A DNA stretch of 64,000 bases, taken from contig JAIQFV010000004.1 of the NCBI GenBank assembly GCA_020073085.1, positions 1 to 64,000 on the forward strand, given 5' to 3'. The stretch comes from Terriglobia bacterium (GTDB lineage: Bacteria; Acidobacteriota; Terriglobia; JAIQFV01). Under the pieces are notes generated by a model that was not told where the DNA came from, did not search any database, and saw only the letters and a list, made by a program, of their open reading frames with translations. Below are positions 5,700 through 58,623 of this stretch, piece by piece. Both the position numbers and the translations under genes were made by a program. Within the stretch, counting starts at the first letter, position 1. Every line of letters begins with the position of its first letter.

Positions 5700-5819
5700 A
5701 AGAATCAACCGCAAAGAACGCCAGGTAGGCGCAAAGGACGCCAAGACACTTAAGGTTGTAGCAATGGCTCTAACGTTGCGCTCATTGCGCCTTCTCAACG
5801 TTCTTTGCGGTTGATTCTT
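5700..5819. repeat. 21-bp perfect inverted repeat between convergent genes
   Basis: Bases 5700-5720 (beginning AAGAATCAACCGCAAAG) are exactly reverse-complemented at 5799-5819, with a 78-bp spacer and a T run after the right arm. The spacer contains further related units (GCGCAAAGGACGCCAAG). It sits between the convergent ends of the HIT and XRE genes, where it could act as a two-way terminator. The unit also resembles the ACCGC-GAG repeats near 20197 and 24218. Confidence 0.75.
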
Positions 5820-7329: not shown

Positions 7330-8375
7330 GGAAATGTCGAATGATTCTTTTGGGACTGCCTGATTCTTCTTAAATTCTAGTCCAACTTTTGTCGGTTGTC
7401 CATTGATTTTGTTTTGACTCGCTCCGTCGTCATTTGGGTACCATCAAAAAAGACGACGGGTATTCCCCCAGCATCCCCGATCGTGAGTGAAGAGTTTATT
7501 TAAGTTCGCTTGAGCAGGAAAAAGCTTGGGGTGGGTGACTCGTCGACTAATGGGGGGGTCGTCCGGTTAACCTGTCCCGGGGGTTGAGGGGATCCCATTC
7601 ACCCTGGCGGATCCCCTCGTACTCATATCTTCTTAAAGAATCCTCCTGCCGGGCGAGGCACAGACTTATGACGGAGCCGCAGGAGTGCTTTTTCGGCCGC
7701 TCCGGTTCTAAACGGGAAGCCCAGTTTTCAAGCATCCAGCTTCCCCTCCGTGTCTTTTCTCTCCTGCCCTGTCTAGTCGAGGTGAGAAAGAGCCCGGCGC
7801 CATCCTTCCTCCTCGGAGAAGGCGCCGGGCTGTAACTTCTCTAAAAAGTTCAAAGTTCCAAGTTGAAATTCCACGGTCCCAAGTCCAAGGTCCAAAGTCT
7901 AAAAAACAGTTCAAAGTTCAAGGTTCAAAGTCAAGAACCCCAAATTGAACATCAAATAGGGTTCTCACTTTTCGTCCACTTCTGATGTCTGCCTTCCGGC
8001 CTCAGAATTCTGACATCGGACTTCCGACTTCTGACGTCCGGCCTCCGACTTCATCCGGGGGCGCACCTCTGTGCGCCCCTACAGGAGAATTCCGGCCTCT
8101 GGCTTCCGTTTATTTCCTCTGGCACTGAGAACTGTCAACTTTCTCTTACGACTTCTGACCTTCGACTTCTGACTTCCGACCTTTGGTTCCGGCTTCTGTT
8201 TCGATCCTCTGGCAACTGACAACTGGCAACCTTCGAATGCGCGTCATTGTTCGTTTGACTTCATCCTGCGGACAACCTACAATCAGGTTTGAATTTAAAT
8301 TCAACCACATACAACGAAATTTGATTTATTGAGGTCTAATAAATCGAACTTGAAAATTGAGGTTAGAAGAATCAA
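7330..8375. other. 1-kb intergenic region, hairpins then heptad repeats
   Basis: No gene is visible. The left part holds two perfect hairpins: GAGGGGATCC at 7586-7595 with its complement at 7609-7618, and AGCCCGGCGCC at 7791-7801 with its complement at 7821-7831. The right part (7845-8240) is filled with degenerate 7-bp repeats, described separately. The last 100 bases before 8376 are AT-rich and probably carry the promoter of the VWFA gene. Confidence 0.6.
7845..8240. repeat. Dense degenerate 7-bp repeat tract
   Basis: Units of seven bases follow one another with few breaks. At 7845-7933 they read like AAAGTTC, CAAGTCC and AAGGTCC. At 7976-8053 and 8147-8195 they read GACTTCC, GACTTCT and GACGTCC. 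At about 8120-8142 and 8211-8231 they read ACTGACA and ACTGGCA. A 9-bp hairpin (GGGGCGCAC, CTCT, GTGCGCCCC at 8058-8079) interrupts them. Unlike other loci, the arms here are not paired as inverted repeats. Confidence 0.7.
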
Positions 8376-9623
8376 ATGACTCGCCATGTGAGAAAAATCT
8401 GGATTTCCATTCTGGGGATATTCCTGCTCTGCCTTGCGCTCGGCGTGGAATACTCGTCCGGATCGTCGGCATCCAATTCGGGACCGGCCGCTTCCCCGCA
8501 GAATCCTCCTCCCGCCAATCCTCCCTCGTCCGATCCACAGGGCCAGGAAAAACCCAAGCCGGAAGGGGAGCGCCCGGAGGGGCCCCAGCAGCCTGCCGGC
8601 GAAGCCCCCATCAAGGGACCCAAAAAGAAGAAGAAGGCCGAGGAGGAGAAGCCGAAGGAGAAGATCAGCGAGAAGGCCGGCGACGTGGCCCGGATCACCG
8701 TGAACGTGGAGCTTGTGCGGCTGGACATTGTTGCGACCGACGGGCACGGGACGCCCATCCCCGGGCTGACGGAGAAAAACTTCCGCGTGTACGAAGACAA
8801 GGTCGAACAGAAGATTCAGAACTTCCAGCCCACGGAGGCCCCGCTGACAACCGTGCTCATGATGGAATTCAGCCGCGCGACGTGCCCCCTGATGTACAGC
8901 ATGTGCGACTTCGGCTATTACACCCTCACCTCGGATGCCCGCCAACTGGCGAACATGCTGTTCCAGGGATTGCGCCCGGAAGACTGGATCGCGGTGGTGG
9001 CCTACGATATCAAGCCTGAGATTCTGGCGGACTTTACGCAGGAAAAGCGCAATCTCTACGACGCCTTGCGCCGCATGCAGGTCCCCGCGTGGAGTGAGGC
9101 GAATCTCTTTGACGCCCTTTCCGACACGCTCGGCCGGTTGGATGAGGTTGACGGCAAGAAGTCGGTCGTCCTGTTTACGACCGGCCTCGACACCTTCAGT
9201 AAATTGACCTACGACAAGATTCTGAAGAGAGTCCAGAACACCGATGTCAGCATTTACCCAGTCAGTTTCGGAGCCTCACAACGCATCATGAATGACGACC
9301 GGATGGGTCCCATCAACCGGCTCAATTTTCTGCAGGCCGACAATCAACTGACCACGTTTGCACGGGACACTGGCGGGAAGGCCTATTTCCCCCGCTTCGA
9401 AGGGGAATGGCCGGGCATTCTGCAGGATATCATGGCAAACCTGCGCAGCCAGTACTCCATCGGCTATGCCCCCTCCAATCCGGCACGCGACGGGAAATTT
9501 CATAAGGTCAAGGTGGACCTGGTCGCGCCCGATGGCGGCCCGCTCAAGGTGGTGGATCAACACGGCAAGACCTTGAAGGTCGACCTGCGATACCGGCCGG
9601 GCTATTATGCACCGAAAGCATAG
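8376..9623 (+). CDS. VWFA-related protein of the acidobacterial type
   Basis: A 415-residue exported protein. Residues 8-25 form a signal/anchor. Residues 30-105 are a Pro/Lys/Glu-rich linker. The rest matches the acidobacterial VWFA-related family (TIGR03436), including VELVRLDIVATDGHG and GLTEKNFRVYEDKVEQKI, then a Rossmann-like VWA core with SVVLFTTGLDTFSKLTYD. The metal site (MIDAS) is weakened: the usual D-x-S-x-S appears as EFSRA at about residue 168. Family members are abundant in Acidobacteriota, and their role, probably protein-protein contact in the periplasm or on the surface, is not established. Confidence 0.88.
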   Translation: MTRHVRKIWISILGIFLLCLALGVEYSSGSSASNSGPAASPQNPPPANPPSSDPQGQEKPKPEGERPEGPQQPAGEAPIKGPKKKKKAEEEKPKEKISEKAGDVARITVNVELVRLDIVATDGHGTPIPGLTEKNFRVYEDKVEQKIQNFQPTEAPLTTVLMMEFSRATCPLMYSMCDFGYYTLTSDARQLANMLFQGLRPEDWIAVVAYDIKPEILADFTQEKRNLYDALRRMQVPAWSEANLFDALSDTLGRLDEVDGKKSVVLFTTGLDTFSKLTYDKILKRVQNTDVSIYPVSFGASQRIMNDDRMGPINRLNFLQADNQLTTFARDTGGKAYFPRFEGEWPGILQDIMANLRSQYSIGYAPSNPARDGKFHKVKVDLVAPDGGPLKVVDQHGKTLKVDLRYRPGYYAPKA

Positions 9624-9843
9624 GGGGAGGTGATAGGTCATAGGTAATAGGTGGTAGCTAGTAGAGAAGAGAAGTCAGAGGTCGGAAGTCGGAGGTCAGA
9701 TAAGGTATCCAATCCTTACTGGGCCTTTTCCCTTGTAGCGCATCTTATTTTCAAATTCAGATATGCGCTTGTTTTTTTTCTGACATCTGATTTCCGACTT
9801 CTGACTTCACTCCCCTACCACCTATTCCCTATCACCTGAAACC
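9623..9843. repeat. Mirrored heptad-repeat inverted element
   Basis: The left arm has AGGTRRT units (9623-9664) then GAAGTCAGAGGTCGGAAGTC-like units (9671-9701). The right arm has the complement in reverse order: CTGACTTC-like units (9780-9809) then CCTATCACC-like units (9812-9843). The arms match well apart from the loss of one 7-bp unit. The spacer of about 78 bp has its own weak dyad (GCGCATCT with AGATATGCGC). It lies between the VWFA gene and the MidA gene. Confidence 0.8.
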
Positions 9844-9850
9844 TTTTTCC

Positions 9851-11041
9851 ATGACTTCTGACCTTCCCCTCCCACAAAAATCCCTGAACACCCCCCTCGC
9901 CCGCCTGATCGCTGAACAGATCCAGGAGGCCGGCCCCATTAGTTTTCGGGATTTTATGGAACTGGCGCTCTATCATCCGGAACTAGGTTATTACAATCGT
10001 TCCCACACCCGACTCGGCAAGGCGGGTGACTTCTATACCAGTTCCCACGTTGGCCCGCTCTTCGGTTGGACCATCGGCCGGGCGATTGAAAAGCTTCTCG
10101 CAGCGGGGGAAAACTCTGCGGCGGGGGGACCGCGTGGGTCGAAGCGTCCCCGGAAGCCCTTGCTTATCGTCGAGTTCGGTGCAGGCGAGGGGTTTCTGGC
10201 AAAAGATGTTCTCGAATATTTTCAGCATCTGAGCCCGTCGCTCTTTGAGCGAGTGCAATATGTCATCGTAGAACAAAGCCCTGCGTTACGCCGCGCTCAG
10301 ACCCGGCTCTTTGATCAGAATCCGGATCTTCAAAAGCGTGTCCGCTGGTGTACTGCCGATGAACTGGAACCGTTCTCAGGCGTGGTACTGGCCAACGAGT
10401 TTGCCGACGCCTTGCCCTTCCACCGCGTGGTTCTGACTGACGACGGGTATCGAGAGATTTTCGTTGATTTGAGAGAAGGAGGTTTTGTTGAGAAGTTAGG
10501 GATGATCTCGTCTCCGCGCGTCGACGCCTTGATTCACGAGGTGGAAGTGGAATTTGAAGAAAGCTGGGATAGCCCCTGGCCGGTGGGTCAACAGGCGGAG
10601 ATTTCCATCGATGCAGCGGACTGGATTGGTTCTTTGTCGGAAAGGATGGAGCGAGGACGAGTCGTCATCATCGATTATGGAGATAAGGCTGGGAAGTTGT
10701 ATAGCTACCCCCCGTCACAGGGGACGGTGCGGGCCTTTTATCAACACCGGGTCAGCAATCGATATTACGAACACGTCGGCGAACAGGACCTCACAGCGGA
10801 TGTGAATTTTTCCTTGCTCCTCAAGGCCGCCGTTGGACATGGCTTTGAAGAACCTGAACTCTCCACGCAAGCCGAGTTCTTGCTCGAAAATGAGATACTG
10901 AAAGTCGTTGAGGATCGCGAGGGAGCACTCCACCTTCCTCAGGAGGAGGCCCGTAATGCGCGCCGCCAGATTTTGAATTTGACCCTGCCCGAGATGATGG
11001 GCACGCGGTTCAAGGTGTTGACGTTGCGGCGTGGGATTTAG
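9851..11041 (+). CDS. MidA/NDUFAF7-like SAM-dependent methyltransferase
   Basis: A 396-residue protein of the DUF185/COG1565 family. The N-terminus has the signature ISFRDFMELALYHPELGYY (about residues 22-40) and GDFYTSSHVGPLFG. The SAM-binding glycine motif is VEFGAGEGFLAKDV near residue 100. A later ANEFADALPFHRV and a C-terminal DYGDKAGKLYS also fit. In mitochondria NDUFAF7 methylates an arginine of complex I subunit NDUFS2 (NuoD). The bacterial role is inferred, but a complex I operon lies 8.5 kb downstream. The gene stands alone, with a heptad element upstream and a hairpin downstream. Confidence 0.9.
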   Translation: MTSDLPLPQKSLNTPLARLIAEQIQEAGPISFRDFMELALYHPELGYYNRSHTRLGKAGDFYTSSHVGPLFGWTIGRAIEKLLAAGENSAAGGPRGSKRPRKPLLIVEFGAGEGFLAKDVLEYFQHLSPSLFERVQYVIVEQSPALRRAQTRLFDQNPDLQKRVRWCTADELEPFSGVVLANEFADALPFHRVVLTDDGYREIFVDLREGGFVEKLGMISSPRVDALIHEVEVEFEESWDSPWPVGQQAEISIDAADWIGSLSERMERGRVVIIDYGDKAGKLYSYPPSQGTVRAFYQHRVSNRYYEHVGEQDLTADVNFSLLLKAAVGHGFEEPELSTQAEFLLENEILKVVEDREGALHLPQEEARNARRQILNLTLPEMMGTRFKVLTLRRGI

Positions 11042-33990: not shown

Positions 33991-34475
33991 CTTGTAGAGA
34001 CCTCGTGCGACTTGGATTGTAGGAACCGTTTGGTAATCCCTCGATTCTCATTTGAGGGTGAACGAAGTCAGACGTCGGAAGTCAGAGGTCAGAGAAGAGG
34101 TGCCAGGTGTCAGGGGGTTAAGTCCAAGGTCCAAAGTCCAAAGTTCAAGGTCCAAAGTCTGGAAACAGTTCAATATTCGAGGCTCAAGGGTCAAAGTCAA
34201 GTACACAAACCAGGATTTTCGCCTAATCACTCTTGTTCCCGACTTCCGACCTCTGATTTCTGACTTCCGGTCTCTGGCTTCCAGATTTTGATTTCCGACC
34301 TCCGACTTCTGTATCCTCTTGCGATCTAATTTCATTCCCGGCTAGCTGCGGGTGTGCTCAAAAAATGCCCACTTTCGATCCTCTGACACCCGACACCTGA
34401 CACCCGGCACCTCTACTCTGACCTCCGACTTCTGACGTCTGACTTCATCTTCCTGAAGCGAGTAAATCGCATTCC
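33991..34475. other. Intergenic region filled by heptad repeats
   Basis: This region separates the peroxiredoxin and thioredoxin reductase genes and is largely occupied by the nested repeat element at 34064-34447. No gene is supported. Confidence 0.6.
34064..34447. repeat. Nested heptad-repeat inverted element
   Basis: The outer left arm (34064-34117) begins GAAGTCAGACGTCGGAAGTC and ends with GGTGCCAGGTGTCAGG. The outer right arm (34383-34447) is its reverse complement in mirrored order, about 43 aligned positions with about four mismatches. Between them lie AAGTCCA-type units (34120-34203) and a long GACTTCC-type tract (34236-34316). Every tract keeps a 7-bp period. Confidence 0.8.
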
Positions 34476-50097: not shown

Positions 50098-50714
50098 AAC
50101 CCATTTCGATGTTTTTTGAGGCGGACCCATCAAACAAGCCGGCCCGAGCCTTCTCTCGGGGCGCCTGTTGCGTGGTGCTTGCCTCCGTCCTCCTGGCAGG
50201 GGGTCTCTCGCCCATCAGCGGGGCACAATCGTTACCTGCGGGCACCGTTCCTCAAATGGATCCGCCTACCCCTGCCTCCTGCGGCTCCGGCCTGAAGCTC
50301 TATGACTCCCCCTTCTTCAAGATCTGTTACCCGAGGCGATGGCACGTCATCCGCGGCTATGGGGTAAACTATGCCTGGTGGGTGTTTTCAAAGCGCAAAC
50401 GCGGGGAGCAATTCGACATCCCTTACATTCGCGTCATCATTGCCAAAGGGATTGCAGAACCGCACCTCGCCAAGCAAACCGACTCCACCGTCCTGGGCGA
50501 GCGAACCTATGTCAAGACCACCAACGAATTCAGGGAAGTGACCGGCAAGAAATTGAATGGCCGGTATTGGCGCGAGATCGCTGTCGGTCCGGAATTCGAC
50601 ATCCTCGCCTGGTATGAGCAGATCAAGATGAAGAACTTGAAACTGTTTGAACGGGCGCTGGATTCGTTTTGGGTGCCTCCCCCGCCGCGGGTTCGACCCA
50701 AGCCGGAGAAGTAG
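50094..50714 (+). CDS. Secreted protein of unknown function
   Basis: A 206-residue protein. Its start ATG shares bases with the stop codon of the dehydratase gene. A hydrophobic stretch (about residues 22-40, CCVVLASVLLAGGL) after a basic segment looks like a signal peptide, though the N-terminus before it is long; a later start is possible. The mature part has SPFFKICYPRRWHVIRGYG and a C-terminal PPPPRVRPKP. I do not recognise the family. It is the last gene of the coupled run and is followed by a heptad-repeat element. Confidence 0.7.
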   Translation: MKPISMFFEADPSNKPARAFSRGACCVVLASVLLAGGLSPISGAQSLPAGTVPQMDPPTPASCGSGLKLYDSPFFKICYPRRWHVIRGYGVNYAWWVFSKRKRGEQFDIPYIRVIIAKGIAEPHLAKQTDSTVLGERTYVKTTNEFREVTGKKLNGRYWREIAVGPEFDILAWYEQIKMKNLKLFERALDSFWVPPPPRVRPKPEK

Positions 50715-50939
50715 GTGGTAGGGAATAGGTGGTAGGTGATAGGTAATAGGTGACTAGGGGCCAGAAGTTAGAAACCACAGCCGAGGTGCCAGGGATGCTA
50801 AGGTTCGATGACCACGTGTATCGTCTCGGTCACTTGAACGAAGGCAAAGAAGTTTCGTCCCGCAACTCACTTCAAGGCTACTGTCCCCTGACCACTACCA
50901 GCTATTACCTATCACCTACCACCTATTCCCTACTCCCTC
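50711..50939. repeat. Heptad-repeat element with 32-bp identical inverted arms
   Basis: The left arm (50711-50757) is made of AGGTRRT-type units, such as GTAGGGAATAGG and TGATAGG. Bases 50718-50749 are exactly reverse-complemented at 50902-50933. The spacer is 152 bp and has no gene. The left arm begins inside the stop codon of the preceding gene, so the element starts exactly at its 3' end. Confidence 0.85.
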
Positions 50940-50981
50940 TCCGCTGGGCTGCGGCACCTGTGCTAAAATGCATCTCCACTT

Positions 50982-56121: not shown

Positions 56122-56139
56122 GGCGAGGCGTCAGGAAGG

Positions 56140-56331
56140 AAGTTGTCAGTTGCCAGTTCTCAGTTGCCAGTGAAGAGCAGCACATTCAGGGGGTAAGATA
56201 CCGAGATATGATTTCGAAGATCCATAATTAAGAGTGCTTTGATCATTGAACTGGAACGTTGAAATTGCGATCTCCGGGGGTTGCATGCCTGATCACTTCA
56301 CGGAGAACTGACAACTGGCGACTGACAACTT
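56140..56331. repeat. AGTTGYC-type heptad inverted element
   Basis: The left arm (56140-56172) reads AGTTGTC, AGTTGCC, AGTTCTC, AGTTGCC. The right arm (56304-56331) reads GAACTGACAACTGGCGACTG and continues, its approximate reverse complement. About 138 bp lie between the arms. CACCCGA-type units follow the right arm at 56338-56352. The whole lies between two genes on the same strand. Confidence 0.7.
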
Positions 56332-56371
56332 TTTTCCCGACACCCGACACCTTTCCAGTAAGGCATGACAC

Positions 56372-58481: not shown

Positions 58482-58514
58482 GATCAACACCTCACCTCGA
58501 TTTTTTGGATAAGA

Positions 58515-58576
58515 AGGGACAGACACCTACTTTGCTGCCATTCCGCGAAATGACTTAAGAGAAGGTGTCTGTCCCT
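58515..58576. repeat. 14-bp inverted repeat AGGGACAGACACCT
   Basis: AGGGACAGACACCT (58515-58528) is exactly inverted at 58563-58576 with a 34-bp spacer. GGGACAGACACC is a word often seen in REP-type palindromes mobilised by RAYT (TnpA_REP) transposases. No such transposase is present in the window. Confidence 0.65.
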
Positions 58577-58623
58577 AACGTTCGAGTCAATCGCCCGTCT
58601 CCTGAGATCAGGGACGGGCTCCT

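Follow-up and report, generated by a model that had tools for sequence, protein, structure and literature searches.

Comparison of orthologous intergenic regions between two Terriglobia genomes indicates that arms built of degenerate 7-bp units are sites at which short intergenic segments invert in the course of evolution. We propose, with a probability of roughly 60%, that these mirrored arrays belong to intergenic hairpins at the 3' ends of genes and act as substrates of strand exchange, which flips the spacer lying between them. The window analyzed here comprises bases 1-64000 of contig 4 in the 5.79 Mb draft genome of a soil Terriglobia bacterium (Acidobacteriota; hereafter the focal genome). 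The nearest relatives found for it are two Terriglobia metagenome genomes, one of the same genus (the sister genome, in which contig SRVP_39 corresponds to the window) and one of the same family (in which contig STD1_3 corresponds to it). Exact gene starts are approximate, as a simple codon model was used for gene calling.

Examination of the window shows that the 227-nt gap at 9624-9850, between the stop codon (9623) of a gene for a VWA-domain protein (8376-9623, + strand) and the next ATG at 9851, is nearly all occupied by one mirrored structure. The upstream gene has an orthologue adjoining the element in both relatives, and orthologues were also found for the downstream gene, which codes for a SAM-dependent methyltransferase (Methyltransf_28; 9851-11041, + strand). 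From left to right the structure consists of an outer arm of type A units (AGGTRRT; 9628-9657, + strand), an inner arm of type B units (GARGTCR; 9671-9703, + strand), a spacer (9704-9775), an inner arm of type B complements (9776-9808, - strand) and an outer arm of type A complements (9814-9844, - strand) that stops 6 nt short of the ATG. The main inverted pair (9635-9703 with 9776-9844) has 69-nt arms that are 75% complementary and lie 72 nt apart; a second register, offset by 7 (9628-9657 with 9815-9844), is 83% complementary and reflects an arm difference of one unit. The initial annotation, made from the sequence of the window alone, had described mirrored AGGTRRT and GAAGTCR units in register at 7 bp, which are indeed present, and arms differing by a whole 7-bp unit, which the second register bears out. 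The structure it delineated also stands, with the amendments that the spacer measures about 72 rather than 78 nt and that the element fills the whole gap.

The orthologous element of the sister genome is 89.5% identical, a level like that of the genes, with a colinear spacer (~90% identical), and lacks exactly one 7-nt unit in the outer left arm. The growth and loss by heptamers that had been suggested is weakly supported, as the indel lengths in element gaps (7 nt, 15 cases; 6 nt, 12; 8 nt, 12) show only a slight 7-nt excess. In the same-family genome, whose flanking genes are 76% (VWA) and 54% (methyltransferase) identical to those of the focal genome, the gap between the same two genes has outer arms of type D instead of A and keeps inner arms of type B. 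The 227-nt gap is predicted to fold very stably both as RNA (-101.5 kcal/mol, z = -9.05) and as DNA (-49.9 kcal/mol, z = -8.24), with no shuffle equaling either value. The spacer is single copy in the focal and sister genomes (whole-genome search, E<=1e-3); a first impression that this core was common to another contig of the sister genome (C9) was not upheld by that search. Within the spacer a GC stem is followed by a T run, to which a terminator scan gave no terminator score, and a scan of the same segment scored no promoter-like site. Searches against Rfam gave 0 matches at the gathering threshold across the 64-kb window.

Related heptamer loci occur elsewhere in the window at about 7845-8190, 34064-34446, 50713-50938 and 56127-56344. 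The first holds composite tracts (7845-8186) of type C (CAARGTY) followed by type B complements, with poorly mirrored arms. At the second, a 51-nt left arm of types B then D (AGGTGTC; 34064-34114, + strand) is 92% complementary to a right arm (34396-34446, - strand) that is absent from the sister genome. The third combines a 40-nt type A arm (50713-50752, + strand) with type A complements (50899-50938, - strand; 93% complementary), and the fourth a type E arm (CAGTTGTC / CAGTTCTC; 56127-56175, + strand) with its complement (56296-56344, - strand). The window also contains non-heptameric dispersed repeats at 133-640 and 58509-58579, which have many copies in the same-genus genome.

A genome-wide search revealed a marked excess of 7-bp periodicity, with 48 lag-7 tracts in an unselected 400 kb sample as against 0-2 in shuffles. 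Much smaller numbers of tracts came from the other lags in that sample, multiples of 7 aside; among these, lags 6, 12 and 15, which are codon-related, stood highest. A match-enriched 457 kb sample yielded 78 lag-7 tracts against 0 in shuffles, and 0-1 at lags 5, 8, 10, 11 and 13. In a census of 1.39 Mb of the focal and 0.87 Mb of the sister genome the tracts were chiefly intergenic (137 intergenic to 13 genic and 78 to 8, respectively). Rather than one fixed unit in direct orientation, we found at least seven unit types in mirrored arms; read in the purine-rich direction, they are A (AGGTRRT), B (GARGTCR), C (CAARGTY), D (AGGTGTC), E (CAGTTSTC), F (CCAAATT) and G (CAGCRRT). Complementarity of the arms exceeds that obtained on shuffling the order of the heptamers (mean z = 4.0 over 33 purine-then-pyrimidine pairs), and in 25 of these 33 pairs at most 5 of 100 unit-order shuffles beat the real arms. 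Thus, the suggested recurrence of mirrored multi-type arms holds genome-wide, above shuffled-unit expectation. As the 33 pairs come from about a quarter of the genome, the system probably numbers over a hundred loci. More widely, among 250 genomes from the class, 14 carry the B-unit pattern, with 69 hits in the focal and 149 in the sister genome and a patchy presence in the others.

Several further features of the repeats were seen in this survey. One heptamer run of nearly 1 kb combines types C, B, A and D (L112:9398-10374). A REP-like palindrome, GCAGGCATGCAAAGAACGCATGCCTGCGGCACCC, is present in several copies, some of which adjoin heptamer tracts (L142 and L146, on contig C2 near 8810, 9830 and 89195, and L136:3597-3642). 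Arrays of GAAGTCA in other Terriglobia genera (L171, L174, L175, L297-L317) are less degenerate, and several are mirrored with the purine-rich arm first; these genera offer a second lineage where inversion could be tested.

The arms of paired tracts follow a strongly preferred order, purine-rich then pyrimidine-rich in 55 cases and the reverse in 4 (focal and sister genomes combined). This order does not depend on the strand read and therefore belongs to the element itself. Loci outside the main comparison gave 9 to 1, a count that includes one sister-genome locus and one element twice. We found no explanation for the purine-rich arm coming first, on either strand, in 55 of the 59 ordered pairs. 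Accounts invoking stop codons, Shine-Dalgarno sequences or Rho sites, considered by reasoning only, were dropped because solo tracts in codirectional gaps lack a strand preference (15 to 13). It might be supposed that these are plain short tandem heptamer repeats, known in several bacteria (PMC4679880), with a symmetry that arose by chance; the unit-shuffle test, the order bias and the dependence of inversions on arms, described below, already contradict this idea, to which we assign a negligible probability.

To compare orientation, orthologous gaps of the focal and sister genomes were taken, and the alignment, in forward and reverse, was confined to the spacer enclosed by the best inverted arms, with per-locus significance derived from the alignment score against 200 dinucleotide shuffles. 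Among mirrored heptamer loci the spacer was inverted at 12, colinear at 13 and without clear orientation at 10; in every inverted call the reverse score lay above all 200 shuffles, and z was at least 10. The first 160 orthologous gaps contributed 6 inverted and 4 colinear heptamer loci; among those of them in which arms were weak or absent, 53 were scorable and 0 inverted (Fisher p = 3e-6). A second set of 24 loci was picked on the arm score in the focal genome alone, and orthologues were sought via one joined-flank search; the 23 recovered comprised 6 inverted, 5 colinear, 7 without clear orientation and 5 with no right flank, with arms still there in 17 of the 18 loci compared. The first outcome was thereby reproduced. 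The comparison of orthologous gaps, which the initial annotation had recommended, thus uncovered inverted spacers in roughly half of the loci that could be scored, a feature missed in that annotation because a second genome was needed.

Strong examples of inverted loci, with reverse/forward scores, are C4:208439 (144/16), C1:53122 (167/24), C2:346715 (108/19), C4:158859 (87/15) and C2:307844 (81/17). Even the weakest calls, including that at 50715 in the window (38 reverse versus 21 forward), have z near 10. In the window, the segments 50719-50949 (reverse z = 10.0, forward z = 2.1) and 56127-56242 (reverse z = 13.4) are inverted relative to the sister genome, whereas 9624-9850 and the segment 33991-34475, which holds the second element, are colinear. 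Also inverted is the core (5702-5816) of a non-heptamer inverted pair (5700-5741 with 5778-5819), so that inversion mediated by arms may extend beyond heptamers; the pair consists of CGCAAAGGACGCC-like units. At another locus (L157, contig C2:307833-308100) lies a type F element, inverted over its whole length relative to the sister genome, whose outer arms have GTTCCACGTGGAAC-like ends similar to a parS site.

Seven inverted blocks that were examined show 69-83% identity over 115-258 nt, close to or somewhat less than the 80% seen for intergenic DNA, and their flanks are mostly colinear. Spacers at inverted loci span 36-264 nt, and the longest exact inverted words are 10-34 nt, which makes misassembly unlikely given that these are shorter than a sequencing read. 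The near-even split between inverted and colinear spacers implies that flips are near saturation: a stricter count of 12 of 22, with a lower confidence limit of 0.32, corresponds to at least about 0.5 flips per locus in the time that intergenic DNA takes to reach about 80% identity.

The placement of the elements bears on their possible function. Paired tracts start at the stop codon of the upstream gene (median -7 nt) and are rare in divergent gaps (2 of 55, compared with 165 of 817; p = 0.001). This placement and the very stable folds could point to selected RNA hairpins, that is 3'-end terminators or mRNA stabilizers whose symmetry is kept by selection on the transcript. We regard this as rather unlikely: the mismatches on the gene strand do not favor G-U over A-C significantly (84 to 71), compensatory changes are few, element gaps are no better conserved than other gaps (0.794 versus 0.805), neither an Rfam family in the window nor a scanned terminator in the 9704-9775 spacer was recovered, and the placement could equally mean tolerance. 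An apparent RNA constraint in a first sample of such mismatches (51 to 35) was gone with more data. Alternatively, a dedicated invertase could flip the segments as phase-variation switches and thereby alter expression of neighboring genes, for which intergenic segments of fitting size, flanked by inverted repeats and present in both orientations (between species), would be suitable. However, the elements sit at 3' ends and avoid the divergent gaps expected to bear promoters, the 9704-9775 spacer lacks a promoter-like site, and arm sequences differ between loci, which makes a single invertase unlikely; phase variation is hence a quite improbable account.

Arms of the same element resemble each other more (0.68) than orthologous arms do between genomes (0.53; p = 0.003), a comparison biased because the arms were chosen for their within-genome match. 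At several orthologous gaps the unit type of both arms differs between the species and is mirrored in each, for example A/A' versus G/G' at C2:393748 and D/D' versus A/A' at C1:289788. The further claim that inverted symmetry is kept is unsupported as worded, i.e. base by base, as arm changes comprise 4 double and 118 single ones, with compensatory evolution not seen.

We favor strand exchange between inverted repeats because arm-dependent inversion, unit-matched arms and the paired change of type all fit it. Spacer inversion together with arm homogenization has been documented as the mark that template switching leaves at inverted repeats (PMC8604942). In the proposed mechanism, arrays of 7-bp units would lengthen and shorten through slippage, and during replication the arms would fold back, or the template would be switched from one arm to the other. 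Copying of one arm into the other would give the unit-by-unit match and the joint change of repeat type, and a switch starting within the first arm would leave the spacer inverted. We infer that template switching in replication, and not a recombinase or RecA, is the agent, and no particular gene-regulatory role would be needed. Several points tell against template switching: base-level homogenization does not show up as compensatory pairs, the comparison of arms within and between genomes is biased, the inverted spacers of the yeast study are far shorter than those here, and the model alone does not predict the strong 55-to-4 order bias.

Some observations suggest mobility. Spacers are mostly unique, with few common to different loci; one core with E and G arms, however, occurs at three non-orthologous places (one in the focal and two in the sister genome), a distribution which points to some mobility. 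A MITE family with a common core was mostly ruled out by the largely unique spacers, this three-copy core being the one exception. The elements could thus be small non-autonomous mobile elements, the heptamer arrays being terminal inverted repeats for a host or transposon recombinase that inverts or replaces them through excision and reinsertion. The fixed inward orientation of the purine-rich arms, the three-locus core, the full exchange of one mirrored element for another within a gap and the preference for gene 3' ends would agree with such an origin. On the other hand, most spacers, including that at 9704-9775, are unique; in 160 orthologous gaps, elements are nearly always in both species (20 in both, 0 only in the focal and 5 only in the sister genome); the arm sequence family varies from element to element; and the best 8 of 19 Y1_Tnp matches have no heptamer tract within 1.5 kb. 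A RAYT neighborhood was likewise rejected, there being no heptamer tracts beside the Y1-transposase loci examined. We therefore hold a mobile origin to be a minority possibility. The purine-first bias and the movable core, which template switching does not explain, nevertheless leave room for an element with recognized ends. More tentatively still than the strand-exchange reading, and with a likelihood of perhaps one in five, the loci could represent a class of invertible, occasionally mobile intergenic elements at gene 3' ends, with purine-inward heptamer-array ends of interchangeable types that are recognized by period or structure rather than sequence, and with both ends switching type together. 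Any mechanism has to account for the purine-first order and for the joint change of type in the two arms.

In the open-access literature, heptamer direct repeats and hairpin inversions are each on record, and we found there no account of arms made of mirrored heptamers of several types, nor of inversion of such arms. These two phenomena, usually treated apart, are here joined in one genome-wide system, which provides a naturally occurring test case for the making and renewal of long inverted arms in bacteria and cautions that alignments of orthologous intergenic DNA may have to allow for both orientations. The cyanobacterial STRR sequences are heptanucleotide direct repeats, and in the P6b region of the cyanobacterial tRNA-Leu(UAA) intron heptamer repeats build both arms of a hairpin, at one intron locus; we know of no spacer inversion in that hairpin. 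The TAACTGA repeats of Beggiatoaceae, which type E units resemble on the complement, are also 7-bp tandem units, mostly intergenic and with many sets per genome; they are direct repeats that for the most part precede start codons, inverted in one case and lacking a predicted structure (PMC4679880), in contrast to the mirrored multi-type arms at gene 3' ends described here. REP and REPIN sequences are high-copy intergenic palindromes (PMC3116915, PMC3733652), whereas the present elements have no common 20-40-nt palindrome and the Y1-transposase genes examined are without nearby heptamer tracts. Site-specific invertible segments are likewise intergenic, flanked by inverted repeats, a few hundred bp long and inverting, but use inverted repeats of 10-20 nt and dedicated recombinases (PMC5903667); here the arms are long, imperfect and variable, and the orientations were compared between species. 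Hairpin loops in non-coding chloroplast DNA, e.g. trnH-psbA, undergo small inversions with 18-bp stems and 25-27-bp loops (PMC2903610). Like our loci, they lie between genes and occur about half and half in both orientations in related taxa; unlike them, they have no heptamer arrays and form no genome-wide family. Polymerase template switching at imperfect inverted repeats leads to arm copying, inversion of the loop or spacer and reversible flips (PMC8604942, PMC8794818), and such repeats share with the present elements inverted arms and spacer inversion, with arm copying and reversible flips as putative further parallels. The inverted spacers of the yeast study were only a few bases (PMC8604942), compared with 36-264 nt here, and the present elements differ further in having degenerate heptamer arms of ~20-114 nt around spacers of tens to hundreds of bases, and in recurring genome-wide in bacterial intergenic DNA.
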